In this document: positions 741-32,980 of the stretch, piece after piece
Position numbering within the stretch: the stretch's first letter is position 1
Layout of the letters: each line of letters begins with the position of its first letter
Assembly (NCBI GenBank): GCA_913063045.1
Contig: CAJXYM010000006.1
Span: forward strand, 1-64,000
DNA length: 64,000 nt
Source of the DNA: an uncultured Flavobacteriales bacterium
Lineage (GTDB): Bacteria; Bacteroidota; Bacteroidia; Flavobacteriales; BACL11
Direction: 5' to 3'
The notes under the pieces: generated by a model
The model's database searches: none
Seen by the model: the letters and a program-made list of their open reading frames with translations, nothing else
What the model was told of the DNA's origin: nothing
Translations under genes and position numbers: made by a program

Positions 741-3200
741 ATGTCACTATTTCTCTCTATATCGTCTTCATTAACAGACCTTTCTGAATTATTTGGTCTT
801 TTTTTATTTTTAATTCCTATAGCTGTACTTGGCTTCATATTTGCGAAACATAAAGATGAAGAGCCTTCCTTTTTATTGCATATTGATAGAATGAAAGGTC
901 TTGAAGATGGATGGACTCCGGTTGTAGTTTTGACTGCACCTTTTATATTTATATTCAATATTTTTGTTTGGGTAGGGTATGCTTTTGTTGTTTTTACTTC
1001 ATTTCTTGCTTGGCTCTTTAAAACAATTTTTGATTTTGTTGTCAAATGGGTTGTGCTGCCAATTTTTAATGCAATTAGGTGGGTTTTCGTAACAATTTTT
1101 TGGGTACCAATCAAAATAATTGCAAAAATATTATATCATTACTGTTTAGTTTGGATGTGGGATCTTTATAAAACATCTTTTTTTGCTATAAATCATTCTT
1201 ATAACTCGAGTAGACTACGAATTGGTTTTATTGGTTCTTTCTATGCTTTAATGATTGTCGGATTAGGAATCTATCTATCAATTTTAACAGATATGGAATT
1301 TTTCTCATTATTCGCTCTTGGTGTTTCAATACTTCCTGTACTCAAATCTGTGGGCGCAATTACTTCAATGATTCATTTTAATGATAATAGAGATCATAAT
1401 GAACACGGATCTAAAGTTATGAAATCAGCTATAAGATATGTTTTAATGGCTTTAGTGTCTGTTGCTATAATTCAAATACTTTTATATTTGAGTTTAGTCC
1501 CTGACTTAGGCTTAGTTATTTTAGGTATTGCAATTAGTACAAACGTATTATTATCTTTTCTTTCAATAATTGCAATTTTTATTTCCTTTTTTGCGCAAGC
1601 TATATTTCCAAATTATTTATTAGATAATGATGATAAAATATCTGCTTTAGATTCAGTAAAGTCTTATATCCATCAAATTAAAGATAAAGGTGTGCAATTG
1701 TTATTTTCTACAATACCACTATCTTTATTTTCTGTCGTAGTTTTAGCAGTTCCCGTATTTTTAGTTTACTTATCTATTTCTGTTGCTGATAATTCTAAAT
1801 TAAAAATATACGAGAACAAAAAGGAAAGTCTTTCTGAAGATATTATTACAGCTAATAAAGACTTAGCTGTACTATTAAATAATTTTGATTCTAATAATAA
1901 AGATTCAGTAAAGTTAGCATTTGAAAAAGCTATTGAATTTGATATTAGATCTCAGCAAATTTCTTTTGGAAATGATTTCCCGAATAACCTTATTGATAAA
2001 CCTAATAGTATTTGTGATACTCATATTACATCATTTACAAGCGAGTTGCCGCAATTTTTTGAGAATTCTAAATTAGACTCTTTTAATATTTCTGAAAATA
2101 TTGCAGAAATCGAACTGCTTTTAGAAAATTTAAATGAACGCTTTACTGAGTTCAATGATCAATCATGGTCTTTTATTGTTCAAAGAAGAAATTCTAAGGA
2201 ATCTAAAGACGACTGGGTTAACCTTAAAGAAGGAACGGATATTTCTAGATATGTTGATAAATCTGTTTTAGAGGGAGAGACTTATCTTTACCGTGTCAAA
2301 GTTAAGAACTCTAATGGTCAGTCTAAGTGGAGTCCAGTAATCACAAAAAAAATAGATAATTCAGATTTAGTATCTCCCTCTTACTTAAGAGTTACCTCTG
2401 AATTAAATTTCAGAAATGTTCTTAGCTGGAATGATAATTCAAATAATGAAACAGGATTTGTAGTTGAAAGAAAAGTTGAGGATGACGATTGGAGTATTTA
2501 TGCTGAAGTAGATTCTGATATTTCTCAATATGTTGATAAAGGTATTATTGCGGGTAAAGTCTATTACTATAGAATTAAATCTAAGCAGAAGGAAACTATT
2601 TCTGTTGCAAGTAATATTGCGTCTGTAGATGTTTATTTAGCACCTTCATACAGTCTTAAGTCAACAGCAAATTTAAAAAGTTTGTTGCTTGATTGGTCTT
2701 ATAAATATAAGTTTAATGCTTTTGGTTGGACTTATAATAATAAAAGAAAAGCTGGATCAATCACTGCTAACGAGGAAAGTGGTTTTATAAAAAACTCAGA
2801 ACTTTCATTTGCTGATGAAATCACCAAAATGATAGATGAGCAAAATAAACTTTTGACAGAAAAGAATGCAGAATTAGAGTTTACTATTAATAAGATGCAA
2901 ATGTTTGATGATCTAATTAATTATGATAATTCTCAAAGAACATCCTTGCTTATATTCAAAAACATATCATTTTTATTTTTATTAATATTTATTGCGCTTT
3001 TTGGAGGTCTATTACTTAGTATTTACTTATCATATTCTTCAAATTTATTTTATCAAGTATTTAAAATACGACACAATCAAGAATGGTTTGTAATAAAATT
3101 ATTAAATGAAGAGAAAAGTGAAAATAATAATCAACCATTATTAGGCTTTACTCTACTAATATTATTTTGTTCATTTATTGTTTATGTAAATAACCTTTAA
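741..3200 (+). CDS. Large membrane protein with two internal fibronectin III-like modules, unknown function
   Basis: I do not recognise this 819-residue protein. It has a hydrophobic N-terminal half with several membrane segments (about residues 16-35, 58-140, 160-210, 230-295, 320-348). A soluble part follows with two fibronectin III-like modules (about 470-540 and 545-632), each holding a W..L/IYAE, YVDK and YRVK/YRIK pattern. A coiled-coil-like stretch (about 690-730) comes next, then two C-terminal membrane segments (about 735-768 and 800-818). The modules therefore sit in a loop between membrane domains, which is unusual because FN3 modules are normally on secreted tails. It is followed after 5 bases by another unknown membrane-anchored protein, so the two are probably one operon and may work together. 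No enzyme motif was seen. Confidence 0.75.
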   Translation: MSLFLSISSSLTDLSELFGLFLFLIPIAVLGFIFAKHKDEEPSFLLHIDRMKGLEDGWTPVVVLTAPFIFIFNIFVWVGYAFVVFTSFLAWLFKTIFDFVVKWVVLPIFNAIRWVFVTIFWVPIKIIAKILYHYCLVWMWDLYKTSFFAINHSYNSSRLRIGFIGSFYALMIVGLGIYLSILTDMEFFSLFALGVSILPVLKSVGAITSMIHFNDNRDHNEHGSKVMKSAIRYVLMALVSVAIIQILLYLSLVPDLGLVILGIAISTNVLLSFLSIIAIFISFFAQAIFPNYLLDNDDKISALDSVKSYIHQIKDKGVQLLFSTIPLSLFSVVVLAVPVFLVYLSISVADNSKLKIYENKKESLSEDIITANKDLAVLLNNFDSNNKDSVKLAFEKAIEFDIRSQQISFGNDFPNNLIDKPNSICDTHITSFTSELPQFFENSKLDSFNISENIAEIELLLENLNERFTEFNDQSWSFIVQRRNSKESKDDWVNLKEGTDISRYVDKSVLEGETYLYRVKVKNSNGQSKWSPVITKKIDNSDLVSPSYLRVTSELNFRNVLSWNDNSNNETGFVVERKVEDDDWSIYAEVDSDISQYVDKGIIAGKVYYYRIKSKQKETISVASNIASVDVYLAPSYSLKSTANLKSLLLDWSYKYKFNAFGWTYNNKRKAGSITANEESGFIKNSELSFADEITKMIDEQNKLLTEKNAELEFTINKMQMFDDLINYDNSQRTSLLIFKNISFLFLLIFIALFGGLLLSIYLSYSSNLFYQVFKIRHNQEWFVIKLLNEEKSENNNQPLLGFTLLILFCSFIVYVNNL

Positions 3201-3205
3201 TTTAT

Positions 3206-4159
3206 ATGAACAATAATATTATAATTTTAATTATTTGTATTGGAGCTTTTTTTGTTATAAATCTTCCTACATCTGATATTACGGATAAAGAACAAAAAGG
3301 TATTTTTGAATATGTAGTTATACCAGATTTTAATTTTTTTAAAAAAACAGAAATTAATGTATTTAAAATTCATACTAATTTTATTACCAATAAGTTAAAT
3401 CAATATATTAATGCTAATTCATTGGTAACAGCCTCATCTTCTGAGATTGGATTTGAATTATTTGTTAATGCTTTAAATGAAGATTTAGAATTTTATGAAA
3501 ATAAACCTCTTGATAATAAAAGTGTAAATCAAACTAAAGGATTAGAAAATAATTCAATTGAGTCATTAAAGATACTTGCTACAAAAAATAAAAATCTTAT
3601 TGTAAAATCTAAAAATATTGAGTTAAAATCGGAAGATTTAGTAACTGAAATAAGAATAAATCCTACTCTATTTTTAAAAGAACCTAATACAATTGATGAA
3701 GATGTGAGTTTAGAAATATTTGACAAAGTAGACAATGAGTATGATGGAAGAGCAATTGTTAATCAAGCCAAAGAAGCAAATGATAATAACGAAGAAATTA
3801 TCTTAAAACAAGATAATCTAGTATTAGAGAATATTATAAACTATAATTCTGATGCGGAAAAGCTTGTCGATAGTATGCTAAATTCACCATCATATGAAAC
3901 ATCTGATAATAATTATTCCGATAAGAAAGAAATAGTTAAAGAAGAAATTAATTATATTGAATTGATGGATAATTTGATTAAGATTTACTCTCTTAAAAAC
4001 AAACCTCCAGGTTTTAAGAAAGAAGCGAAAATTTTTATTACTCAAAATATGATTGTTGGACTCATTACTAAAAATGATGTCATAAGTATCTTTACAGAAA
4101 ATGCTAAACGTTCAATCTCAAAGAAAGATATTAAAAAATATATTAAAAATAACAAGTAA
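3206..4159 (+). CDS. Membrane-anchored protein of unknown function
   Basis: This is a 317-residue protein with one hydrophobic N-terminal segment (IIILIICIGAFFVINL), acting as an uncleaved anchor or signal sequence, then a highly charged, Asn/Glu/Lys-rich region with no recognisable domain. The last 80 residues (from about EINYIELMDNL) look more ordered and may form a small folded domain. It starts 5 bases after the FN3-containing membrane protein and is probably co-transcribed and functionally linked with it. No catalytic motif is visible and I cannot assign a family. Confidence 0.65.
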   Translation: MNNNIIILIICIGAFFVINLPTSDITDKEQKGIFEYVVIPDFNFFKKTEINVFKIHTNFITNKLNQYINANSLVTASSSEIGFELFVNALNEDLEFYENKPLDNKSVNQTKGLENNSIESLKILATKNKNLIVKSKNIELKSEDLVTEIRINPTLFLKEPNTIDEDVSLEIFDKVDNEYDGRAIVNQAKEANDNNEEIILKQDNLVLENIINYNSDAEKLVDSMLNSPSYETSDNNYSDKKEIVKEEINYIELMDNLIKIYSLKNKPPGFKKEAKIFITQNMIVGLITKNDVISIFTENAKRSISKKDIKKYIKNNK

Positions 4160-9110: not shown

Positions 9111-9305
9111 CTAAAAATTATAAGCCATAATATGAAAGCCTGTTATATCCTGCAAAGAAGCTACTTGAAACAGCTTTAGAGCCCTTGTAGAGCTATCTAA
9201 TGATACTTCTGCAATGTTACGGCTGTCTATGGGGTAAGAGAGATAAATCCCTCTGCTATCAATATAAGTTTGAACACCATTTTTGTTTATGAAATATGTA
9301 TGCAT
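9111..9305 (-). CDS. Small protein translationally coupled to the polymerase-like gene
   Basis: This is a 64-residue protein of unknown family, with no membrane segment or metal motif. Its ATG overlaps the stop codon of the polymerase-like gene (TAATG), the same arrangement seen between that gene and the HTH gene before it. That makes it likely to be really translated, by coupling, and to act with the polymerase-like protein. It contains a DSRGIYLSYPIDSR segment with an internal DSR repeat. Confidence 0.6.
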   Translation of the reverse strand: MHTYFINKNGVQTYIDSRGIYLSYPIDSRNIAEVSLDSSTRALKLFQVASLQDITGFHIMAYNF

Positions 9306-10837
9306 TATGCTGTTTTTTTAATTGTTATAGGATTATCAGCTGACCAATAATCCACTTTAAAAGATGGTTCAAGACCTATTGCTATTATCATTTCTTCCCG
9401 CATTACTTGCTCTACATAATCCTCATTACCTAATGTAGTAGCAACAGAATCGTGAATAGTAGTAATAAATAAGTTGGGTCTTTCAATAGAAATACGCTTT
9501 GCCACTCTATTCAAAATAATAGTACTTTCAATAATTTGTAGGGTAATAGGAAGGACTGTGCTATCATTACGCTTAATATGAAAGAGTATATCATAAACAG
9601 ATGGGAATAATTCCTTAAATATTCTTTTAGGTTTAGCGTCAGCTTGTCCTAAGAACCTGTTATCAGTAAACAACACTTGAAATACTGCTGCCTTAACACC
9701 CCTACCATCAATATCAGCTATACCCTGTTGTTCTAACTGCATTTCTTTTGATAGAAACTTGTACAAATCCCCACTCTGGCAAAGGTCAATATACCTTTGA
9801 ATATCAACAGGAACAGCTATACTTACAGGTGGAATACCTGTTTTTGTAAACATAATATAAGAAGTATAGCTAAAGGGATTACAAGACATTGTTATAATAT
9901 CACTGAAAACACTGGGTAATATGTCTGAATTATTAAGAATATTAGGTTTTAAACCTTTTTTTAGAATTTTCTCCTCCATTTCTGCAGTTGCTGTGGCGTC
10001 AGTATTCCAAAACACTGGACTTAACAGTGTAGTACTAAGCATTGGCTGTGAATTTGCAAAATCAACTGATACTATTGGCTGACCATTATAAGTAACATAA
10101 TTCCTAAGCTCACTTTTAATATTAGTAAGGTTAGTATGCACCCTATATGCAGTTGAATCTTGTGTAAAACCAAAATCTTTGTTATCAATCCTATCTATAT
10201 TATCTAAACCAACAGTCAACCTAACTGTAGGATTTGCAGGTTTTTTTAATGATTTACTTTTATAAGTGGCACTAGCTACCTTTAACTCATATTTAGCTAA
10301 CTTACTAGAGTATTCTAATTTATCTTGCTTATACATACTCCAAGCACATTCAGAAGCCCCCTCTACATCAATTTCTAAGCCATCTAAATATTTATATAAG
10401 AAGCCATACTTTTTTTCAGTAGCATAAGATGAATTAGATTTTTTAGAAAGCTTCCTTACTAAAGAACCCTTACAAATGGTTACTTTCTTAGGAGTAGCAT
10501 CCGCATAACTATCTGTAAAACTAAACCCCTTACATTTTTTACCATTGATATATTGATTATCTGTTTTGAAAACATCAGCTTTAACCAACCAATCAACAGT
10601 TGCCTTATAATCATTACCAAATAAGTGTTTCAATTTAGTAGCACTTATATAGGTATAATCCCCATACAAAAGCCTTTGGTTCTCCTGCATTGGGTATAGC
10701 TCGTTAATCATTGCTAAGAGCTGATAAACCTTATATTCTTTAGGTTTATAATCCTCCTTATTAGGAGAATGAATTTTCAGTAAAATACTGTGGTTATAGT
10801 TTTTGGGTATGTATTTGTTCTTAACTTCTTTACTCAT
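9305..10837 (-). CDS. Divergent single-subunit polymerase-like protein (family A DNA polymerase / T7 RNA polymerase superfamily)
   Basis: This 510-residue protein shows three palm-domain motifs in the right order. Motif A is VSVDFANSQP with Asp259, comparable to E. coli Pol I VSADYSQIEL (Asp705). Motif B is GRGVKAAVFQVLF, where K382-F386-F390 repeats the spacing of Pol I K758-F762-Y766, with an Arg three residues before the Lys. Motif C is TIHDSV with His462-Asp463, which is HDS as in T7 RNA polymerase where Pol I has HDE. At the Pol I steric-gate position (E710) there is Gln264, so sugar choice cannot be predicted. No 3'-5' exonuclease motif is visible. The N-terminal 240 residues are unrecognised and may include a winged-helix DNA-binding part (about 60-110). 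It is TAATG-coupled to an HTH gene upstream and a 64-aa gene downstream, inside an integrase element. Likely role: replication or transcription of the element. The assignment is by motif reading only. Confidence 0.65.
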   Translation of the reverse strand: MSKEVKNKYIPKNYNHSILLKIHSPNKEDYKPKEYKVYQLLAMINELYPMQENQRLLYGDYTYISATKLKHLFGNDYKATVDWLVKADVFKTDNQYINGKKCKGFSFTDSYADATPKKVTICKGSLVRKLSKKSNSSYATEKKYGFLYKYLDGLEIDVEGASECAWSMYKQDKLEYSSKLAKYELKVASATYKSKSLKKPANPTVRLTVGLDNIDRIDNKDFGFTQDSTAYRVHTNLTNIKSELRNYVTYNGQPIVSVDFANSQPMLSTTLLSPVFWNTDATATAEMEEKILKKGLKPNILNNSDILPSVFSDIITMSCNPFSYTSYIMFTKTGIPPVSIAVPVDIQRYIDLCQSGDLYKFLSKEMQLEQQGIADIDGRGVKAAVFQVLFTDNRFLGQADAKPKRIFKELFPSVYDILFHIKRNDSTVLPITLQIIESTIILNRVAKRISIERPNLFITTIHDSVATTLGNEDYVEQVMREEMIIAIGLEPSFKVDYWSADNPITIKKTA

Positions 10838-11106
10838 TAGGCAGCTCTCTTATTATCGTTAAGCACTTTAAGTATTGCTTTACGCTCATAATAAAGAGTG
10901 CCCCCTATCCTAGTGTAAGGGATTTTTCCATTGATTCTATGATTCTGTAGTGTACCTGTGGAAAGGGTTAGCATCTTCATTACCTCTGCTGACCTTAGCC
11001 ACTCCTTTTGAGTAGTTGTTTTTTCTGTTATTAGTGCTATTTCACTAATAATTTCTTCTTTCATTTTTTGAAGGTCTTGTACTGTAACTAAGTTGTTTTT
11101 ATCCAT
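10837..11106 (-). CDS. Helix-turn-helix DNA-binding protein, excisionase-like
   Basis: This 89-residue protein has an N-terminal coiled-coil-like stretch and a C-terminal MerR/excisionase-type HTH (about residues 33-75; WLRSAEVMKMLTLSTGTL ... GKIPYTRIGGTLYY). Such proteins are common next to Bacteroidota tyrosine integrases and act as excisionases, replication-initiation helpers or regulators. The ORF-track start at 11145 is a TTG, and the first in-frame ATG is at 11106 (MDKNNLV), which I prefer. Its stop codon overlaps the start of the polymerase-like gene (TAATG), so the two are co-translated. It follows the integrase gene on the same strand. Confidence 0.8.
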   Translation of the reverse strand: MDKNNLVTVQDLQKMKEEIISEIALITEKTTTQKEWLRSAEVMKMLTLSTGTLQNHRINGKIPYTRIGGTLYYERKAILKVLNDNKRAA

Positions 11107-11275
11107 ATTTAATATGTATTGATTTGTATTAATATCATATAACAAATTTTAATTGAATAATTAGTCAAAATTAAGTATTATCTCTAATTTGCTTTTCAAC
11201 ATAATGTGAGTAACTAACCATTATGAGGGTCTATTTATACACCATGGTTTGTCGTATATAGGATTAAATATTTTT

Positions 11276-12505
11276 TTATGAGGCTTTCTGTGTTCCTTTT
11301 AAATTTATATTCATCAGTTTCTTCATGTCATCAGCTATTTTACTGTCAATTATCTTGGCATAAATCTGTGTGGTTTTTAAATCTTTATGCCCTAGAATTT
11401 TTGCAACAGTTTCAATAGGAACTCCTTTAGTGAGTGCATAAGTTGCAAAAGTATGTCTTGCAGTATGCATAGTTAGATTTTTGGTTATCCCACACAAATC
11501 AGCTATTTCTTTTAGATAGGCGTTCATATTTTGGTTTGAAAGGACTGGCAGAACACTGCCTTTATTAACTGCTAAGGGGTGGCCTTTGTATTTGTTAATT
11601 ATTTTAAGAGCTTGTGGTATCAAAGGAATGTGAGATGCTGTATTTGTTTTTTGCCTTCTGATATGTATCCACAGGTTGCCATCAATACCTGTATGTAAAT
11701 TATCAGGATTAAGTTTTTCTACATCAACAAATGCTAAGCCAGTAAGACAACAGAAAGCAAATATATCTCTGACTAGCTCCAAACGTTTTATTGTAAATTC
11801 TTTGCTAAGTAAAATCTGAATCTCATTTTCTGTTAAGAACTCTTTTACTACCTCTTTGTTTTTCATCTTAAACTTACGGAATGGGTTTTTATCTATCCAT
11901 TCATTGTCTAGAGCAATATTAATCATCTTTATTAAGTGTGATAGGTATTTATTGGTTGTGTTTCTGCTGATGTTTTTTACACTTAAAAGATAATGCTCAA
12001 AATCTGTGATGAAACCGAAAATTACTTCACCTAAATGTATATCATCTGCTTTATAGTTAAACTTAATAAACTCCTTTAAATGTTTGTAGGAAAGCTCATA
12101 TTTACCAACAGTAGCAATTGCATAACCTTTGCCTATGAGCTGATTGATTTTTTTGTTATGGTTCTCAAAAACCCCAAGAAGTGTTTTTTTATCAGGATTA
12201 ATGTCTAATACAGCATTTTTAAGAGTCCCTGCTGTAATTGATTTATTCTTTTGCATTAACTCTTGTTGATTTTCATAAACCTTAGCTTGTATAGTGTCTA
12301 GGTATTTGTTCAGTGATTTTGTTTGTTCGTTAGAGCCTTTTGCTCTGCCCTTAGTATTGTTCCATTTGTTAGGGTCAATTGTTCTTTTGGCAGAAAATTC
12401 AGCTCTTTTTCCATTGATAGTTATGCGTACATAGATTGGTACAGTACCATTTGATTTTGTTTTACTTGTTCTGATGTAGAAAAGTAGTGAGAAAGTATTT
12501 GTCAT
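11276..12505 (-). CDS. Tyrosine site-specific recombinase (integrase)
   Basis: This 409-residue integrase has the three usual parts: an arm-binding N-terminus (about 1-95), a SAM-like core-binding domain (about 105-205) and a catalytic domain (about 220-395). Catalytic residues seen: H347-x-x-R350 (MHTAR), His373 (GHKDLK) and the nucleophile Tyr382 (TTQIYAKI). The position of the first catalytic Arg reads TGLAF, as in the Bacteroides conjugative-transposon type of integrase, where this Arg is replaced. It would integrate and excise the element at tRNA-Val, and lies next to the intact tRNA with the subterminal repeats in between. The HTH, polymerase-like and 64-aa genes follow on the same strand. 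Confidence 0.93.
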   Translation of the reverse strand: MTNTFSLLFYIRTSKTKSNGTVPIYVRITINGKRAEFSAKRTIDPNKWNNTKGRAKGSNEQTKSLNKYLDTIQAKVYENQQELMQKNKSITAGTLKNAVLDINPDKKTLLGVFENHNKKINQLIGKGYAIATVGKYELSYKHLKEFIKFNYKADDIHLGEVIFGFITDFEHYLLSVKNISRNTTNKYLSHLIKMINIALDNEWIDKNPFRKFKMKNKEVVKEFLTENEIQILLSKEFTIKRLELVRDIFAFCCLTGLAFVDVEKLNPDNLHTGIDGNLWIHIRRQKTNTASHIPLIPQALKIINKYKGHPLAVNKGSVLPVLSNQNMNAYLKEIADLCGITKNLTMHTARHTFATYALTKGVPIETVAKILGHKDLKTTQIYAKIIDSKIADDMKKLMNINLKGTQKAS

Positions 12506-12602
12506 TTTAAAGTATTTTAGACTCCTATTTATTGCTTACAATATACATAATTTTAAGTTAATATGCAACAGAATAAACTATATAATTCACATATTATCAA
12601 CA

Positions 12603-12664
12603 CTTTACACTCTTTCTGGTGTCCCATTTCAAAACTTAAAAAAGGACACCTAATAGGACACCTT
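12603..12664. repeat. Right-end subterminal repeats of the element
   Basis: CTTTACACTCTT (12603-12614) is the exact reverse complement of 5860-5871. AGGACACCTAATAGGACACCTT (12643-12664) repeats 5822-5843 exactly and in the same direction. An inverted GGTGTCC word lies between them (12618-12624). Located between the integrase gene and the tRNA, these are likely recombinase arm or excisionase sites. Confidence 0.65.
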
Positions 12665-12704
12665 TAATATGGGATTTAATAGTGTTATTTGGTGATGTTG
12701 GAAA

Positions 12705-12739
12705 ACAAAAAACCCCATAAACACTTAGTTTACAGGGTT
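12705..12739 (-). terminator. Rho-independent terminator now serving tRNA-Val
   Basis: On the minus strand AACCCTGTAAAC ... GTTTATGGGGTT forms two 5-bp stem blocks with a small internal mismatch, followed by a T run (TTTTTTG). It lies inside the element just downstream of the tRNA, replacing the host terminator now found at 5718-5748. Confidence 0.7.
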
Positions 12740-12774
12740 GTTGCTAAAATTTGGATTCTTTTGGTAGAATATCT

Positions 12775-12796
12775 GTGGGCAATGAGGGACTCGAAC
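12775..12796. repeat. Right attachment site within tRNA-Val
   Basis: The last bases of tRNA-Val, including part of the T arm and the acceptor stem, are repeated at 5750-5771. The crossover must lie in the shared 17-base run 12775-12791. Confidence 0.85.
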
Positions 12797-12850
12797 CCCC
12801 GACTTCCTCCTTGTAAGGGAGGCACTCTGAACCAACTGAGTTAATCGCCC
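12776..12850 (-). tRNA. tRNA-Val (anticodon TAC)
   Basis: The minus strand folds as a full tRNA: acceptor GGGCGAT / ATTGCCC with discriminator A, D arm CTC ... GAG, anticodon stem CCTCC / GGAGG with loop CTTACAA (anticodon TAC, valine), and T arm with TTCGAGT. CCA is not encoded. Its 3' part is the integration site of the neighbouring element and the gene stays intact. The preceding folC gene lies 56 bases upstream on the same strand. Confidence 0.95.
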
Positions 12851-12906: not shown

Positions 12907-14109
12907 TTATAATACTTCTGCTACTATAAAAGTACTTCCTCCAATGAAAATTAAATCATCCTTACTAGCATTTTCTTTTGCATTAATATAAGCCTGATTA
13001 ACTGAGCTAAATTCATCACCATAGAGATTAAATTCTTCAGCTCTTTGCTTAAGGATGTTAGTTTGAAGTGCACGGTCTATTTTTGCTGCACAAAAATAAT
13101 ATTTTGCTTTTTTGGGAAGTAATTTGAATACGTTTGTTAAAACTTTGTCATTTACACTACCAAAAATAAAATGCAACTTATTAAATTTTGTTTTTTCAAT
13201 TTGACGTAAAATATTTTTAATTCCATCTTCATTATGACCGACATCACAAATGGTTAGAGGATTCTCTGATAGTTTTTGCCATCTTCCTTCTAATCCTGTG
13301 TTTTTTAAAATATTATTTATTCCCTTATTAATCTGTTCATTGCTTATATTCCAATTTAATACTTCAATAGCTTTAATCGCTGTGCCAATATTCTCGTTTT
13401 GATAATCACCTTTCACATCAGTTGTAATATTTTTAGGATTATCATTATAATATAATTTAGCATTTTTTTCTTTTGCAATACTCTTGAAAATTTCCTTTGT
13501 TTTATCCTGTTTTTTTCCAATAATTATTGGAGTATTTTTTTTGATAATTCCTGCTTTTTCAAATGCAATTTTTTCAATGGTATTACCTAATAAGTTTGTA
13601 TGATCTAATCCAATATTCGTTATTATTGAAAGTTCAGGATTAATAATATTAGTGCTATCTAGTCTTCCGCCTAAACCAGTTTCAATAATTGCTATGTCTA
13701 CTTTTGATTCTGTAAAATAATTAAATGCCATTGCAACAGTAAATTCGAAAAATGACATATTTATTTTTTCAAATTCTAATTGATTTTCTTTTATAAAATT
13801 TATGATATATTTCTTATCTATTGTCTTGCCATTAATTTTAATTCTTTCTCTAAAATCTTTTAAATGAGGAGATGTATAAAGTCCAGTTTTATAGCCTGCT
13901 TCTTGAAGTATTGATGCTAGCATATGAGCAGTAGAGCCTTTGCCATTTGTGCCTGCAATATGAATAGTTTTTATTTTTTTTTGAGGATTATTAAGAATTT
14001 TACATGCTTTTATTATGTTCCCAATATCTTTTTTGTATGCTGCAATGCCACTTCTTTGATACATAGGTAGTCTTTGAAAGAGATACTCTACACTTCTCTT
14101 ATAATCCAT
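12907..14109 (-). CDS. folC: Bifunctional folylpolyglutamate synthase / dihydrofolate synthase
   Basis: This 400-residue Mur-ligase-fold enzyme joins glutamate to dihydropteroate and to reduced folates in the cytoplasm, using ATP. Evidence: P-loop AGTNGKGS (about residues 52-59), the folate-type segment LYTSPHLKDFRERIKING, ETGLGGRLDSTN, and the C-terminal domain with DVGHNEDGI. The ORF-track start at 14112 is a TTG. The ATG at 14109 (MDYKRSVEYLF) overlaps the TGA of the tonB-like gene, so translation is probably coupled. It is the last gene of a leftward series with exbB, exbD and tonB, a pairing more likely transcriptional than functional. Confidence 0.95.
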   Translation of the reverse strand: MDYKRSVEYLFQRLPMYQRSGIAAYKKDIGNIIKACKILNNPQKKIKTIHIAGTNGKGSTAHMLASILQEAGYKTGLYTSPHLKDFRERIKINGKTIDKKYIINFIKENQLEFEKINMSFFEFTVAMAFNYFTESKVDIAIIETGLGGRLDSTNIINPELSIITNIGLDHTNLLGNTIEKIAFEKAGIIKKNTPIIIGKKQDKTKEIFKSIAKEKNAKLYYNDNPKNITTDVKGDYQNENIGTAIKAIEVLNWNISNEQINKGINNILKNTGLEGRWQKLSENPLTICDVGHNEDGIKNILRQIEKTKFNKLHFIFGSVNDKVLTNVFKLLPKKAKYYFCAAKIDRALQTNILKQRAEEFNLYGDEFSSVNQAYINAKENASKDDLIFIGGSTFIVAEVL

Positions 14110-14897
14110 CAATTTAATTGGAAATTATAGATGATTTTTCCTTGTTGTCTGCTAGGAGCAGATTCTTTTGCAGTAAATTTAGTTTTTAGAGCTGCTTCTT
14201 TTGCTCTTTTTAATAATTGAGGATCTAATGTTGTTGATCCCTTAACTCCAGAAACAGCACTTATAACATTACCTAATTGGTCAACTGTAATTTCTACTAC
14301 TACCTTCCCTTGAGTTTGAATTTTATATATTGGTTTTGCTTTAAAAGAAACATTCCTTCCCGATAGCTGGTAGGCTAAACCATCAATACCTATTCCTCCT
14401 CCTTCATATTCGGTTGAGTTTTGATTTCCTTCTACTGAACCCTGGTTTCCTTTATATTCTTTATTACCATCTGAATCCTCTGGGCTTGTTTTTTTACCGG
14501 TGTAAAGTGCTTTTTTATTTACTATTGGTTCTGCTTTCTCGATAACTATTTCTTCTTGTTTTTCTTCTGGTTCTTTTTGGGTCTCCTTCTTTGTCTCTTT
14601 TGGAGCTTCTATTATTTCTGTTTTAACAAGATCTTGCGTAATAACTTCTTGTTCAATTTCAGCGACTTCTTTTATTATCTCCTCAATTTTAGGGTCAGAT
14701 TCAACGGCATTATCTTCTGGTTGAACGTCTTGATTCCCTTCATCAGTAAATCCAAAATTAATAGTAATTCCCTCTTCAGGTGGTGGAGGGATTCGATATG
14801 TTAGCCCCATAAAAATAAAACAAATAGCTAACAGAGAATGGAAAATTATTGTTCCTGCTATTCCTTTTATTTTATTGTTCTTTTCAGAAGAACTCAT
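14109..14897 (-). CDS. TonB-family energy transducer
   Basis: This 262-residue protein has one N-terminal membrane anchor (about 12-33), a Pro/Glu/Lys-rich periplasmic spacer, and a C-terminal TonB-like domain (about 175-262; KVVVEITVDQLGNV). TonB proteins carry energy from the ExbB-ExbD proton channel to outer-membrane receptors. The order exbB-exbD-tonB with 1-base gaps or overlaps supports one complex. The sequence PPPPEEG just after the anchor is typical of Bacteroidota TonB proteins of this operon type. The specific receptors cannot be named. An alternative name would be a TolA-like cell-envelope protein, which I find less likely. Confidence 0.85.
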   Translation of the reverse strand: MSSSEKNNKIKGIAGTIIFHSLLAICFIFMGLTYRIPPPPEEGITINFGFTDEGNQDVQPEDNAVESDPKIEEIIKEVAEIEQEVITQDLVKTEIIEAPKETKKETQKEPEEKQEEIVIEKAEPIVNKKALYTGKKTSPEDSDGNKEYKGNQGSVEGNQNSTEYEGGGIGIDGLAYQLSGRNVSFKAKPIYKIQTQGKVVVEITVDQLGNVISAVSGVKGSTTLDPQLLKRAKEAALKTKFTAKESAPSRQQGKIIYNFQLN

Positions 14898-14898
14898 T

Positions 14899-15291
14899 TT
14901 AATTAGGTTTTGTAGCTAGTACTATTTTGTATTTATTTCTGTAAGCAATATCCATTACTTTTACTACATGCTCGATTGCAACAGTTTTATCGGCATGTAA
15001 AATAATAGCAGGCTCTATTTCTGCGCCAATTAATTTTCTTAATTCATTTTCTAGATTTGATTCTAAAACAATATCTTCATTTATATAGAAATCAATTTCT
15101 TTATTAATTGATATGGAAATGGTTTGTTTCTCTAAAGTTTTAGATTTACTATTTGGAAGAAGTAATTTAAGAGCATTAGGACTAACCAGGGTAGAGGTTA
15201 GCATGAAAAATATAAGCAATAAGAAAACAATATCTGTCATTGAAGACATATTAAAGTTTGGACTAACTTTATTTCTGCTTTTTAATGCCAT
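14899..15291 (-). CDS. ExbD/TolR-family proton-channel subunit
   Basis: This 130-residue protein has one membrane segment carrying the conserved Asp (MTDIVFLLLIFFML, about residues 18-31) that takes part in proton flow, then a small periplasmic domain. It works with ExbB to drive TonB. Its ATG overlaps the stop of exbB (TAATG), and the tonB gene follows 1 base after its stop codon, which indicates tight co-expression. Confidence 0.92.
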   Translation of the reverse strand: MALKSRNKVSPNFNMSSMTDIVFLLLIFFMLTSTLVSPNALKLLLPNSKSKTLEKQTISISINKEIDFYINEDIVLESNLENELRKLIGAEIEPAIILHADKTVAIEHVVKVMDIAYRNKYKIVLATKPN

Positions 15292-15989
15292 TATTCATTA
15301 AGGTGTAAAACATCTAAAAACTCCGTTGTTCTTGCTTCTAAAAGAAAGATCACTTTATCTACTTTAGTTACTAGATAATTGTAAGCAATATAAGCTATGA
15401 TCCCAACTACTAAACCACCAACAGTTGTTACCATGGCGGTATATATTCCTTTTGATAACATTTCAACATCAATATTACCTCCTGCACTAGCCATTTCATG
15501 AAAAGCTACAATCATTCCAATAACAGTACCAAGAAAACCAATCATTGGTGCAGCACCAGCAATAGTAGCTAGATTTGCTAAATTATTTTCCATTTTATAT
15601 ACTTCAAGTTTTCCTTGGTTTTCGATTGCCGCAGAGATATCTGTCATTGGTTTATCAATTCTATCAATACCTTTCTCAATCATTCTAGAAACAGCATTAT
15701 CTGTATTTTGACATAATGTTTTAGCTGCTTGCATATCTTTTTGCTCAACAAAGTTTTTTATGCTTTTAAGAAAACTTTCATCCTCTTCACTTGCTTTGTT
15801 TATAGTAGAATATCTTTCAAAAAGAATATAAATTGCATAAATGGATAATAACCCCAGTGCACTCATGATAATATTCCCCCCTAAACCTCCAGAACTAATT
15901 AGCTCTACAACAGAAAGTGTTTTTTCTTCAACTATAATATTTGTTAGCGAATCTCCAGTAATTGGTATTTGAATTAAAAGTATCTTCAT
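15291..15989 (-). CDS. MotA/TolQ/ExbB-family proton-channel subunit
   Basis: This 232-residue inner-membrane protein has three membrane segments (about 42-62, 140-165 and 180-205). It includes the typical Gly-rich segment GAAPMIGFLGTVIGMI and the third helix MVTTVGGLVVGIIAYIAYN. It forms the pentameric proton channel with ExbD. It is first of the exbB-exbD-tonB-folC set and lies 35 bases downstream of nhaD. Confidence 0.93.
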   Translation of the reverse strand: MKILLIQIPITGDSLTNIIVEEKTLSVVELISSGGLGGNIIMSALGLLSIYAIYILFERYSTINKASEEDESFLKSIKNFVEQKDMQAAKTLCQNTDNAVSRMIEKGIDRIDKPMTDISAAIENQGKLEVYKMENNLANLATIAGAAPMIGFLGTVIGMIVAFHEMASAGGNIDVEMLSKGIYTAMVTTVGGLVVGIIAYIAYNYLVTKVDKVIFLLEARTTEFLDVLHLNE

Positions 15990-26849: not shown

Positions 26850-28442
26850 TTATCTTTTTTTATTATAGTCTGTACCTTTACGTTGATTTTCACCAAGTTT
26901 ACTTTTAGGGTCGCCAACTCTATCCATTGCACATCTAAAACCAATTGCATCAGTAGCCTGAGATTGATCTAAATATCTTCTTGTTCCAGGATTAAGCCAA
27001 TATGCTCTATCTTCCCAAGAACCACCTTTATAAACTCTTGTTCTATCAGTAATTAAGGATGAACTTCCATAATCATACATTTCACTACTATTTCCTGTTT
27101 TTGCTTCATCTTGATATTTGCTCGCTTGTTGATTCCATTTATCTATTTTCACTCTTGAAGTATCTTTATCTGAAGTTTCACTTAAAAAGTTATTCCAGTC
27201 AATACCCATTTGAGATTCAATATCTCCATCAAGATAGTTAATATTATCAGATTTTTTGTAATTTCTTCTATACGCGTTATCTTTAACATCTACGTCAACC
27301 ATAATAAGTCTACCTAAACTATCTTTTTCAGCAATAAAACCATCTTCATCTGTAAGTGGAGTTTGGAAAACATTTCCTCTAAAAGGTCTATGGTCTGTAG
27401 TAGTAGTTTGCTCTGTTACTGGTCTATAAACATCCATTACCCATTCAGAAACATTACCCGCCATATCAAATAAACCATAATCATTTGGCCAGTAAGTGCT
27501 AACTGGAGCTGTAACATCGGCTTGGTCGTTTAAATTTCCAGCAACTCCCATGTTATCTCCTCTTCCTCTTTTAAAGTTTGCCATTATTTGCCCTTGATTC
27601 TTGCTGCTTCCATTTCTTAAAGATGAACCATTCCAAGGAAATATTTTTCTTTCATTAATATTTTCACTATTTGTATTTCCAACATAGCCTAAAGCTGCAA
27701 ACTCCCATTCAGCTTCTGTAGGTAGTCTATATTTAGGAAGTAATAAACCATCTGTTCTTTTAACCTTTCTAAATTTTTCACCAGTAGACGGGTCTAGATT
27801 TCTAAGTAACCTTCCTTCAATACCATCATACTGTCCAGCTAAATAAGCTTCAGTATTAAAAGTATTATCATCAACTTGCTCAGCATCTTCTTTTAAAATA
27901 CCAGCGTTTATTAAAATTCTTTCATTTACTCTGTCTGTTCTCCAAGTACAAAAATCATTTGCTTGATCCCAACTAACTCCCACTACTGGATAGTTTTTGT
28001 ATGCAGGATGTCTTAGATAGTTATCTACGAATGGTTCATTATATCCTAATTTATCTCTCCATACAAGTGTATCTGGAAGACTTTTTAAGTATACTTCTGG
28101 ATATGAACTATTATAAACTCTTTTAATCCAAAATAAATATTCCATGTAGTCAACATTCCTTACTTCTGTTTCGTCAAGGTAGAATGATGAAACCGTTACT
28201 TTCTTTGGAACATTATTCCAGTCGTAATGAACGTCTTGCTCTACTCTTCCTTGAACAAATGAACCTCCTTCAACGAAAGTTAGACCTGGTCCGGTAACTT
28301 GTTCTTTAAAGTTTGTGTTTACTTCATACCCGCCGTTTTTAGAGTTGTTATATGACCAACCTGTAATAGATGAGTTTTGTTTTGAGCAAGAAGCAAATAT
28401 CATTATTGTACTTAGTGCTAAAATTATTTTATTTGTTTTCAT
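26850..28442 (-). CDS. gldJ: Gliding motility / type IX secretion lipoprotein GldJ
   Basis: This outer-membrane lipoprotein of about 530 residues has a formylglycine-generating-enzyme (SUMF1)-like domain. Evidence: lipobox STIMIFASC with Cys19, GLTFVEGGSFVQGRVEQD, SFYLDETEVRNVDYMEYL, HPAYKNYPVVGVSWDQAN, YRLPTEAEWEFAA, and the C-terminal GGSWEDRAYW and GFRCAMD. GldJ is required for type IX secretion and gliding in Flavobacterium. GldK is a close relative, but the context with murF and porU/porV favours GldJ. The track start at 28454 is a TTG, and the ATG at 28442 (MKTNKI) gives a normal lipoprotein signal. The SprF-like gene precedes it by 24 bases. Confidence 0.9.
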   Translation of the reverse strand: MKTNKIILALSTIMIFASCSKQNSSITGWSYNNSKNGGYEVNTNFKEQVTGPGLTFVEGGSFVQGRVEQDVHYDWNNVPKKVTVSSFYLDETEVRNVDYMEYLFWIKRVYNSSYPEVYLKSLPDTLVWRDKLGYNEPFVDNYLRHPAYKNYPVVGVSWDQANDFCTWRTDRVNERILINAGILKEDAEQVDDNTFNTEAYLAGQYDGIEGRLLRNLDPSTGEKFRKVKRTDGLLLPKYRLPTEAEWEFAALGYVGNTNSENINERKIFPWNGSSLRNGSSKNQGQIMANFKRGRGDNMGVAGNLNDQADVTAPVSTYWPNDYGLFDMAGNVSEWVMDVYRPVTEQTTTTDHRPFRGNVFQTPLTDEDGFIAEKDSLGRLIMVDVDVKDNAYRRNYKKSDNINYLDGDIESQMGIDWNNFLSETSDKDTSRVKIDKWNQQASKYQDEAKTGNSSEMYDYGSSSLITDRTRVYKGGSWEDRAYWLNPGTRRYLDQSQATDAIGFRCAMDRVGDPKSKLGENQRKGTDYNKKR

Positions 28443-28466
28443 TATTAAATGCAATTAGGTTAATAA

Positions 28467-29456
28467 TTAGAATTGTGGACAACTGATTGTGTTAAATGAT
28501 TTAGATCTAGATTGACGAGGCATGAAATAAGTAAATGATATTTCATGAGCACCCATTGTATTACTGTTTTTTAAGTTACTTACAGTAATATCGTAGCTAT
28601 ATCCAAATTTAAAGGTTTCTTGAATTACTCCAAACATTAAAATAAATGAGTCAAAGTTTTCTAAACTGTTTCTTGCCCATAATCCACCAACAAGAGGTCC
28701 TCTATAGATATAAACTCCATAATTAAATTGTTGGAAATCTTGTTGCTTCTGGTAAAGAAAGTTGGGAGAAATAGTTGTAACATTATTTTTATATTTACTT
28801 AATGGGAAATTTCCTCCCATATGAGCTGTAAATTTACTTGGCAGCTGACTCTCACTAATAAAACCTTGTTCAGGCTGTGTCATATGGTGAAACGCCATTC
28901 CAAAAAATAAATTTTGTGTGTATCCAATAACACCAGATGAGAAATCTATGTGGGCTACACTTGAAGGGTTATTAGCTATATCCTCTTGTGTTGGGTATAT
29001 GAATCCATATTTTTGATCAATCATATCACCAAATGTTAGCTGACTCCAATCAAGATCCAGCATTCTAAATGAAGCTTCGAATCCTGCTTTTAGAGCAAAT
29101 CCTCTATTTACCTGTAAATGGTATGAGTACAATGCAGAAAGTGAGTTTAGTTGAATATTCCCATCTCCACTTCGGTCATTTAAAACAATAAATCCTAGAC
29201 CTCCATTTACGGCGTCTACAGGAGCATCAAATGAAGCAGATGTTGTTATAAAAGTCCTTCCAATTCCAGGCCACTGGTCTCTGTAGTTTAATGCCATTCT
29301 TGGCCCTCCATGAGCGCTAGCTCCTGTAAATGCAGGATTTAGGTATATAGGGTTAGCATAGAACTGACTAAATGCAGGGTCTTGCGCACTAGATTGTAAG
29401 CTAATCAGTAGACTTGCTCCAAAAACTAGTATAAATTTTGATATATTATTAATCAT
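28467..29456 (-). CDS. PorP/SprF-family type IX secretion outer-membrane protein
   Basis: This 329-residue beta-barrel protein has a signal peptide ending SLQSSAQ and the family's hallmark DPAFSQFYANPIYLNPAFTG at the mature start. The barrel ends in an aromatic-rich strand. PorP/SprF proteins partner the type IX machinery or individual large secreted adhesins. It is divergent from porU and upstream of gldJ, and probably shares a transcript with gldJ. A TATTTTTG box (29487-29494, minus) lies 30 bases before its ATG. Confidence 0.93.
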   Translation of the reverse strand: MINNISKFILVFGASLLISLQSSAQDPAFSQFYANPIYLNPAFTGASAHGGPRMALNYRDQWPGIGRTFITTSASFDAPVDAVNGGLGFIVLNDRSGDGNIQLNSLSALYSYHLQVNRGFALKAGFEASFRMLDLDWSQLTFGDMIDQKYGFIYPTQEDIANNPSSVAHIDFSSGVIGYTQNLFFGMAFHHMTQPEQGFISESQLPSKFTAHMGGNFPLSKYKNNVTTISPNFLYQKQQDFQQFNYGVYIYRGPLVGGLWARNSLENFDSFILMFGVIQETFKFGYSYDITVSNLKNSNTMGAHEISFTYFMPRQSRSKSFNTISCPQF

Positions 29457-29586
29457 ATAATTAGTGATTTCATGATTTAAACCTCACAAAAATAAACATT
29501 TTATTTGTTTTTACCCTGAAACTAATCTAAAAAAGTGAAATAATGATTTATTAATAACGTTATGTAAATGATTTTAAAATCTTAAC

Positions 29587-29594
29587 TAACTTTG
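29587..29594 (+). promoter_or_regulatory. Candidate promoter -7 box of porU
   Basis: TAACTTTG lies 5 bases before the porU ATG (29600). The first transcribed base would fall at or near the A of the ATG, so the messenger would be leaderless or nearly so. No -33 box was found. Confidence 0.45.
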
Positions 29595-29599
29595 CAATA

Positions 29600-32500
29600 A
29601 TGATTAGAAGACTCTTATTTATTTTAGTTTGTTGTTTACTTGTGTTTGTTTCAAGTGCTCAGCAAAACTCCGTTTTAAATAACGGTAAATGGTTTAAGGT
29701 TAGTGTCGAAAATGATGGTATTTATAAAATTAATTATACTGATTTAAATGCTATGAATTTGAGTGAAAATGTAATTTCTATAAACTCAATAAAACTTTAT
29801 GGTAATGGTGGCAGTATGTTGCCAAATATAAATTCAGAACCTAGATATTCTGACTTACAAGAAAACGCTATTTTTATTGAAGATATTAATAATAATAATA
29901 TTTTTGATTCAGAAGATTTTATTTTGTTTTATGGTCAATCAACAGACACTTGGAAATATAATAGCTCATCTAATTTATTTGAACATCAAAATCATTTTTT
30001 TAGTGATGAAAATTATTATTTTATAACCATAGAGGAATCATTATCTAATGCAAATGGTAAAAGAGTAACTAATAAAAACTTAGTAGGCTCATTTGATTTA
30101 ACTATAAACACCTTTAATGATTATCAATTTCATGAACAAGATATAGAAAACCTAATTCAATCTGGTAGTAGGTGGTTCGGCGAGAGGTTTGAAATTCAAA
30201 ATACATATTCATTTGATTATAATTTTCCTAATTTAAAAAATAATGTGCCTGTTTATATTAAAGCGTCTGTTGCTGCAAGATCAATAAATAGCTCTTCATT
30301 TTCCATTAAAGCAAATTCAAATTATTTAAATTCCATTGGAGTTGCTAATATTATTTATCAATATGCTTCTGAGTATGCTAAATCTTCAGATGCTACTAGA
30401 TCTTTCCTCTCAGATAATGATATTATTGATATTACTTTAAACTATAGTTCTTCAGAGAATAACGCAATTGGTTGGTTAGATTATTTAGAGTTAAATGTTA
30501 CTAGAGACTTAACAATGACTAATGATTTTATGTTATTTAGGTATTCTAATTTGTCTAATGACCTTACTGCTCAATATGAAATATCTAATGCAAATTCAAA
30601 TACTATTATTTGGGATATAACTGACCCCATTAATATTCAAAATTTGCAAAAATCATACTTGAATTCAAAGTTGATTTTTAATGATTCAATAAATATATTA
30701 AAGCAGTACTGTATGTTTAACGGAAATAATTTTAATAGTCCAAATTTTGTGGGATTAATTGAGAATCAAAATTTGCAAGCTCTTCCATCCACTATAGAAT
30801 ATGTGATAATATCTCATCCTAATTTTTTGAATGCAGCTAATCGACTAGCAAATTTTCACAAGGAGAATGATGGTTTATCATCTTTTGTTGTAACTCCTCA
30901 GCAAATATATAATGAGTTTTCTTCTGGAGTAGAAGATGTTACTGCTATTAGAGATTTTATTAAGATGTTATATGATAGAGATAACGCATCAATTGAATAT
31001 GTACTATTGATGGGTGATGGTTCATATGATCATAAAAACAGGATATCACCAAATCATAATTTTATTCCTACTTTTCAATCACCAAATTCTTTACACCCTA
31101 CATTAAGTTATGTTACCGATGATTATTTTACATTATTAGATATTGACGATGGTGACTTTAATAATGATATTGTTGATATTTGTTTGGGTAGGATACCTGT
31201 TGTTTCTCTAACTCAAGCTAATCAAGTTGTTGATAAGATTGAGGCTTATTATGATGAGAGATCTTTAGGAGATTGGAGAAACAACATCACTTTTGTTGCT
31301 GATGACGGAGATAATGGTACACCACCAGATGGAAATCTTCATATGCGTGATGCTGATAAATTAGCAGAAAATTTAGATACTGTATATGCTAATTTAAATT
31401 TAAAAAAAATATATTTAGATAACTTTTTACAAGAATCAACTCCCGGAGGGCCTAGAAGTCCTCAAACTCAAAGTGCTATAAATAAATGTATTGAAAAAGG
31501 AACATTTTTAATTAATTACACTGGCCATGGAGGACCTTTAGGATGGACTCAAGAGAGAATATTGGAGATTGATCAAATCCAAAATTGGGATAATTTATAT
31601 AAGCTTCCTTTATTTATGACTGCAACATGTAAATTCTCAAATTTTGATGATCCAGAAAAAACTTCAGCAGGAGAATTAGCTTTATTGAACCCCAAAGGAG
31701 GTGCTATTGCACTTTTAACAACAACTCGCCTTGTTTATGCTGCACCAAATTATACGCTTAATAAAAATTTTGTTAGTGTATTCTATGAAAAAAATAATGG
31801 TCAATTTCCAACTTTGGGTCAGCTTTTTAAGAAAACTAAAGTATTAAGTGGCTCCAACACGAATACAAGAAATTTTACGCTCCTCGGTGATCCAGCATTA
31901 AGACTTTCTTATCCAGAATATAATATTAGCTCAACAACAAATATCGATACAATGAAAGCATTAGAAGAAGTAATAGTTTCAGGAGAAATTCTTGATAATA
32001 ACGGATTACTAATGAATAATTTTAACGGTATTGTTTATCCTACAGTTTTCGATAAAGAAGTCGTTTCTCTAACATTAGGTCAAGAATCTTGCACCCCAAT
32101 GCCATATAGGAATCAAGATAATATTATTTATAAAGGTTTAGCAACAGTCAACGCAGGACAGTTTACATTTTCTTTTGTTGTTCCCAAGGATATTGAGAAT
32201 AATTTTGCTAATGGAAAAATAAGTTATTATGCTAAAAGTGATGATGGAGATGATGCTAGCGGGCATGATGATTCTTTTTTGATAGGTGGTTTGTCTGATA
32301 ATATAAATTACGATTTTGAAGGTCCATCTTTATCGTTATTTATGAATAATAGAAATTTTTTAGATGGAGGTATTACAAATAGTAGCCCTAGCTTATTAGT
32401 TGATATTGAAGATTTAAATGGAGTGAATACAGTTGGTAATGGTATCGGGCATGATATTATTGCATATTTAGATAATAACACTTCGGAACCAATCAATTTG

Positions 32501-32980
32501 AATGATTATTATACTTCTGAAATTGATAATTATAAAAAGGGTGAGGTGCTATTTCCTTTTCAAGATTTAGATTTAGGTGAGCATATAATAACGATAAAAG
32601 TTTGGGATGTCTTTAATAATTCATCTCAACAATCTCTTGCTTTTAATGTAGTTGAAGATGATAATATAATAATTTCAAACTTTAAATGTTATCCAAACCC
32701 TGTTAGCTCATCAGCAGAATTCTTTTTTGAATATAACAAGAGTGAAAATATTTCTGATTTTTCTTTTGAAATATTCTCTACCACAGGACAATTAATTAGA
32801 ACAATTAATAAGAATATGTTTATTGACGGTTACAGAATTGGTCCTATAATCTGGGATGGGAAAAATAGTTATGGCAATTCCTTAAGTCCTGGAATATATA
32901 TAGTCAAGTTAAATATTTCATCAGAAGATGGTATGCTTAGTTCAGAATCTATACCTATTGCAATAACTCCAAATTATTAA
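29600..32980 (+). CDS. porU: Type IX secretion system sortase PorU
   Basis: This 1126-residue exported protein with a gingipain-like (C25) cysteine peptidase domain cleaves C-terminal sorting domains of type IX cargo at the cell surface and attaches them to lipopolysaccharide. Evidence: signal peptide (LLFILVCCLLVFVSSAQ), VLLMGDGSYDHKN, the catalytic His643 in YTGHGG and Cys677 in TATCKFSNFDDP, and a C-terminal sorting-type domain (CYPNPVSSS ... SPGIYIVKL) which PorU keeps. The catalytic pair is intact. PorV, its shuttle partner, is encoded downstream after a small glutaredoxin-like gene, and gldJ and sprF are on the opposite strand. Confidence 0.95.
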   Translation: MIRRLLFILVCCLLVFVSSAQQNSVLNNGKWFKVSVENDGIYKINYTDLNAMNLSENVISINSIKLYGNGGSMLPNINSEPRYSDLQENAIFIEDINNNNIFDSEDFILFYGQSTDTWKYNSSSNLFEHQNHFFSDENYYFITIEESLSNANGKRVTNKNLVGSFDLTINTFNDYQFHEQDIENLIQSGSRWFGERFEIQNTYSFDYNFPNLKNNVPVYIKASVAARSINSSSFSIKANSNYLNSIGVANIIYQYASEYAKSSDATRSFLSDNDIIDITLNYSSSENNAIGWLDYLELNVTRDLTMTNDFMLFRYSNLSNDLTAQYEISNANSNTIIWDITDPINIQNLQKSYLNSKLIFNDSINILKQYCMFNGNNFNSPNFVGLIENQNLQALPSTIEYVIISHPNFLNAANRLANFHKENDGLSSFVVTPQQIYNEFSSGVEDVTAIRDFIKMLYDRDNASIEYVLLMGDGSYDHKNRISPNHNFIPTFQSPNSLHPTLSYVTDDYFTLLDIDDGDFNNDIVDICLGRIPVVSLTQANQVVDKIEAYYDERSLGDWRNNITFVADDGDNGTPPDGNLHMRDADKLAENLDTVYANLNLKKIYLDNFLQESTPGGPRSPQTQSAINKCIEKGTFLINYTGHGGPLGWTQERILEIDQIQNWDNLYKLPLFMTATCKFSNFDDPEKTSAGELALLNPKGGAIALLTTTRLVYAAPNYTLNKNFVSVFYEKNNGQFPTLGQLFKKTKVLSGSNTNTRNFTLLGDPALRLSYPEYNISSTTNIDTMKALEEVIVSGEILDNNGLLMNNFNGIVYPTVFDKEVVSLTLGQESCTPMPYRNQDNIIYKGLATVNAGQFTFSFVVPKDIENNFANGKISYYAKSDDGDDASGHDDSFLIGGLSDNINYDFEGPSLSLFMNNRNFLDGGITNSSPSLLVDIEDLNGVNTVGNGIGHDIIAYLDNNTSEPINLNDYYTSEIDNYKKGEVLFPFQDLDLGEHIITIKVWDVFNNSSQQSLAFNVVEDDNIIISNFKCYPNPVSSSAEFFFEYNKSENISDFSFEIFSTTGQLIRTINKNMFIDGYRIGPIIWDGKNSYGNSLSPGIYIVKLNISSEDGMLSSESIPIAITPNY

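Follow-up and report, generated by a model that had tools for sequence, protein, structure and literature searches.

The type IX secretion system of Bacteroidota contains GldL and GldM, an inner-membrane transmembrane component and an anchored partner that crosses the periplasm. TonB and TolA of the ExbBD and TolQR systems have an N-terminal transmembrane anchor, a periplasmic linker and a small C-terminal domain. They engage their motor through an SHxLxS motif with a transmembrane histidine (PMC12204202). Here we compare with these systems two adjacent genes, ORF1 and ORF2, which lie on the same strand 5 bases apart in a 64,000-nucleotide stretch (the window) of the small genome of an uncultured marine Flavobacteriales bacterium (1.37 Mb, 85% complete). 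The pair is a real, conserved, rare and unnamed unit, and it is not a known system. Conservation of both genes in four other genomes excludes chance reading frames.

Architecture of the two proteins

The features of the locus are as follows.

741–3200, + strand: ORF1, polytopic inner-membrane protein with a predicted periplasmic FN3 pair, 819 aa
789–1784, + strand: N-terminal multi-pass membrane domain (residues ~17–348; hydropathy, alignments, genome searches)
1785–2159, + strand: first predicted periplasmic helical part (residues 349–473; model), the least conserved region, with 31% mean pairwise identity
2169–2351, + strand: FN3 domain A (residues 477–537; Pfam, model, Foldseek)
2385–2633, + strand: FN3 domain B (residues 549–631; Pfam, model, Foldseek)
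2808–2972, + strand: second stalk helix (residues 690–744), running unbroken into the next transmembrane helix in the model
2973–3197, + strand: two C-terminal transmembrane helices and a connecting loop with a conserved NQPLLGF-type motif (residues 745–819; hydropathy, alignment, model)
3206–4159, + strand: ORF2, charged protein with an N-terminal anchor, 317 aa
3206–3265, + strand: ORF2 membrane anchor (residues 1–20, without histidine; sequence)
3995–4156, + strand: ORF2 C-terminal helical module, 54 aa, weakly SHOCT-like; a TonB_C domain takes its place in one relative (G106)

The original prediction had described an unrecognised two-gene membrane system, and its coordinates, lengths, strand and spacing of the two reading frames all proved correct. 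Neither Pfam nor NCBIfam has a family that covers the membrane domain of ORF1 or window ORF2. In scans for promoters and terminators, matches stayed at the level of chance. Searches of Pfam, NCBIfam and PADLOC for clues to function turned up only FN3, PKD and TonB_C, a search of the PDB by sequence gave nothing convincing for either protein, and no paper on the ORF1 family was found in the literature.

The hydropathy profile of ORF1 shows several transmembrane helices within residues 17–348, a loop of 395 residues, and transmembrane helices at 745–763 and 798–816. Most positive charges fall in loops predicted to be cytoplasmic, and these cytoplasmic loops are short. This charge distribution suggests that the loop 349–744, including its FN3 part, is probably periplasmic. 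The best conserved region is residues 114–300, with a mean pairwise identity of 57%, compared to 31% in the stalk. Four residues of the N-terminal domain, N73, W114, H133 and Y134, are invariant throughout the family alignment, and N73 and H133 sit in or near membrane helices.

A structure model of ORF1 built from a 12-sequence alignment reached a pLDDT of 69.7 and a pTM of 0.50, at which the relative placement of parts is unreliable; residues 1–110, a transmembrane region, are poorly modelled. A long helix (302–380) leaves the membrane, a further helix spans 435–473, beta domains occupy 477–537 and 549–631 (block pLDDT ~46–79), residues 633–688 are disordered and helix 690–775 returns into the membrane. 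The model suggests that a helical stalk holds the two FN3 domains, and together with hydropathy it bears out the proposed enclosure of FN3 between a multi-helix N-terminal region and two C-terminal helices.

The FN3 modules themselves, which had been placed within residues 470–632 and made to depend on an FN3 fold in structure models, are present there. The best 50 Foldseek matches listed against the PDB are all FN3-type, mostly tandem FN3 (best E 1e-7), and matches among viral structures are essentially FN3-type and tail proteins. The Pfam fn3 profile remains below its cut-off on whole window ORF1 (E 0.006) and just below it on residues 454–653 alone (E 9e-5, two stretches), and it exceeds the cut-off in the orthologue of genome G015 (E 4e-6; 6e-8 for the domain region). 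The two beta domains match the structures of tandem FN3 proteins, including contactin, neogenin, titin and bacterial or phage FN3 proteins. However, the matches that are known come from animal proteins, extracellular or sarcomeric, or from phage tails, whereas the ORF1 pair is inserted between bacterial inner-membrane domains.

ORF2 begins with a hydrophobic segment, continues through a charged middle of low complexity and ends in a conserved module. Linkers vary in repeats and length between genomes while both ends are retained, a pattern like that of spacer-type arms. The ORF2 model is poor (pLDDT 42), too low for a fold search, with helices in the module at pLDDT ~60–69. Of the earlier description of ORF2 as an anchored, charged protein with an ordered end, the anchor and the charge hold; the ordered end is likely, the module being conserved in sequence but modelled at that modest confidence. 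The SHOCT profile stayed below its cut-off on this end, scoring in one orthologue only (E 0.19; 11.8 bits against a cut-off of 27). Among 298 genomes of the order, the 54-aa module was found only in the ORF2s of this family, in a lipoprotein-like protein of genome G004 and in one weak partial match in G258. The G004 protein (L062 5503–6705) ends in the module, and no ORF1 was found in that genome.

Relatives and genomic setting

Orthologues of ORF1 are 41–58% identical to the window protein (G001 57%, G015 44%, G003 42%, G106 42%). The close relatives are catalogued as MAGs of uncultured Flavobacteriales. G106 belongs to another family and matches window ORF1 as closely as other genera of the window's family do. 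ORF2 lies immediately downstream of the FN3-type ORF1, in the same order and on the same strand, in each of the five close genomes, that of the window among them. With starts chosen by alignment, the gaps are 5, –8, 7, 10 and 54 bases. In G017 a fragment of ORF2 stands at a contig end and the place expected for ORF1 is missing.

Growing profiles revealed a wider family, in G169, G337, G405 and G407 of the same order and in G495, G436, G754, G646 and G459 of the same class. Profile matches and alignment show that its members share a homologous N-terminal membrane domain, the portion of ORF1 kept across the Bacteroidia, and a C-terminal NQPLLG-type motif. This wider ORF1 family occurs in 7 of 398 Flavobacteriales genomes and in 7 of 395 Bacteroidia genomes, one doubtful match counted. 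A match in G457, with two internal stops (E 4e-4), was judged doubtful. In the distant members the FN3 pair is replaced by PKD-like domains or a coiled coil: PKD-like domains occupy the FN3 position in G337, G405, G495 and G459, and neither domain type was found there in G169, G436, G646 and G754, the last being nearly identical to G436. PKD-like domains in place of FN3 on the same membrane domain are what would be expected of an exchangeable tip. A SPOR-like reading by eye of the C-terminal tail in G459 had no support from Pfam.

The pair is always adjacent in the FN3-type genomes. The wider family shows what the original prediction had named as a refutation, homologues of the first gene without the second: G169, G405, G495, G436, G754, G646 and G459 carry an ORF1 relative without ORF2. 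No ORF2-like neighbour was seen in any distant member with a readable downstream region; the contig ends there in G337, and the gene itself is cut in G407. The ORF1 relatives without ORF2 also lack the FN3 pair, which makes the ORF1–ORF2 pair a trait of the subfamily.

In the window, a DEAD-box helicase reading frame lies upstream of the pair on the opposite strand and a photolyase/cryptochrome gene lies downstream. The surroundings differ between window/G001, G015/G003 and G106, with no conserved functional neighbours of the pair, and within the genus pairs the neighbourhoods look stable and chromosomal. Further along, positions 9305–12850 hold a likely small integrated mobile element adjoining a tRNA-Val gene (12775–12850), with the following parts.

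9305–10837: 510-aa protein of unknown function
10837–11145: HTH_17 protein
11276–12505: tyrosine integrase

Because the photolyase gene adjoins the pair in G001 as well, the integrase region at tRNA-Val apparently excludes the pair. In G495 (L042 6184–13164) the ORF1 relative is flanked by pieces of a recombinase and an IS3-type transposase and by an extra copy of the glmS 3' end, whose protein sequence is 75% identical to that of the complete glmS; the arrangement looks like an island at the glmS end.

Comparison with TonB and type IX secretion components

ORF2 shares with TonB and TolA the succession of anchor, periplasmic linker and small C-terminal domain, and in G106 it carries a true TonB_C domain (Pfam E 3e-20; TIGR01352 E 2e-13). 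Residues 1–66 of G106 ORF2 are related to G003 ORF2 (blastp E 1e-4), and an ORF2 N-terminal profile gave it 18.1 bits compared to 8.8 for the best unrelated reading frame; in an earlier version of this test it scored above all 1000 shuffles. This homology comes mainly from the anchor and the post-anchor segment alone is not significant, so the evidence for its kinship is moderate. G106 is alone among the ORF2s in having TonB_C, and Pfam found none in window ORF2, whose module is not TonB_C. None of the five ORF2s has a histidine in its first 30 residues, the SHxLxS motif is absent, and neither the window nor related loci showed ExbB/ExbD next to the pair. Apart from ORF2, the window encodes its own TonB-like protein with adjoining ExbD and ExbB (14109–15989; ExbB/ExbD at 14899–15989), which serves as an internal control: it has a transmembrane His20, and no Pfam TonB_C match at 1e-3. 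Lacking a transmembrane histidine, ORF2 has at most an anatomical likeness to a TonB arm, and we do not file it as TonB.

Like GldL and GldM, ORF1 and ORF2 are predicted to combine an inner-membrane transmembrane component with an anchored, periplasm-crossing partner. The family libraries gave no sequence match between the two pairs, however, and ORF1 is much larger and multi-pass. The window also contains GldK-, SprF- and PorU-like genes (26850–32980), which, judging by eye, we take to resemble type IX secretion or gliding components.

Candidate roles and significance

The reading that we tentatively favour is an inner-membrane platform, ORF1, with a periplasm-crossing arm, ORF2, which would link it as tether or transducer to a partner in the periplasm or outer membrane. 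What has been observed is the pairing in the subfamily, the FN3 fold, the swapping of tips across the wider family and the TonB_C end in G106; topology, contact between the two proteins, reach to the outer membrane and function are inferred. ORF1 would supply the multi-pass domain, a periplasmic helical stalk with two FN3 domains and the two C-terminal helices. ORF2 would be its dedicated partner, fixed by a single N-terminal transmembrane anchor, spanning the periplasm with a charged linker of variable length and docking through its C-terminal module. Interacting physically, the two would hold the inner membrane and the partner together or pass force or a signal between them, and the choice of partner would be set by the end module of the arm and the tip, whether FN3 or PKD. 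Against this platform and arm stand the distant ORF1 relatives without ORF2, the lack of a conserved functional neighbour, and an anchor without the transmembrane histidine or SHxLxS. A bolder version, in which ORF1 drives or gates a TonB-like arm with exchangeable end modules through conserved membrane residues such as H133, independently of ExbB/ExbD, would be a new trans-envelope coupling system of Bacteroidota; we consider it very unlikely.

The original prediction proposed an envelope sensor or assembly factor. A sensor, in which FN3 detects a ligand or envelope damage, the membrane domain signals inward and ORF2 is an accessory tether, would suit recognition-type periplasmic domains on a stalk joined to transmembrane helices, and tips that vary on a constant membrane domain. 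It is unlikely, as ORF1 has no cytoplasmic signalling domain, its cytoplasmic loops being short, and the pair has no conserved neighbour that encodes a regulator, a kinase or a sigma/anti-sigma factor. The TonB_C domain of G106 ORF2 speaks instead for a link between the inner and outer parts of the envelope. The strong conservation of the multi-pass core relative to the stalk, and its invariant N73 and H133, could instead reflect an export or import pair without an ATPase, in which ORF1 is a transporter or channel and its periplasmic FN3/PKD stalk hands substrate on to a partner in the outer membrane that ORF2 engages. This, too, seems improbable: none of the transporter families of Pfam or NCBIfam resembles ORF1, and the Foldseek matches listed concern the FN3 part only.

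An accessory role is favoured over a core one by the very patchy distribution and by the apparent island at the glmS end in which the G495 relative lies. Together with the 42% identity of the G106 protein across families, they also fit a surface or assembly factor carried on mobile islands, for instance in defence or competition, with no housekeeping role. We regard that as distinctly improbable. The window pair fits none of the PADLOC models, weak matches being confined to distant relatives and mainly to their coiled coil; one distant ORF1 relative had no match among plasmids, the window family had none among viral contigs, and the pair keeps its stable-looking chromosomal setting within genus pairs.

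The membrane domain is unnamed in the libraries used and occurs sparsely across the Bacteroidia, where FN3 and PKD tips replace each other on it; the ORF1 profile provides a means to find and name the family. In Bacteroidota, links from the inner to the outer membrane are central, as in type IX secretion, SusCD uptake and gliding. If the platform and arm span the envelope, they would add to these a link that is not of the ExbBD type.
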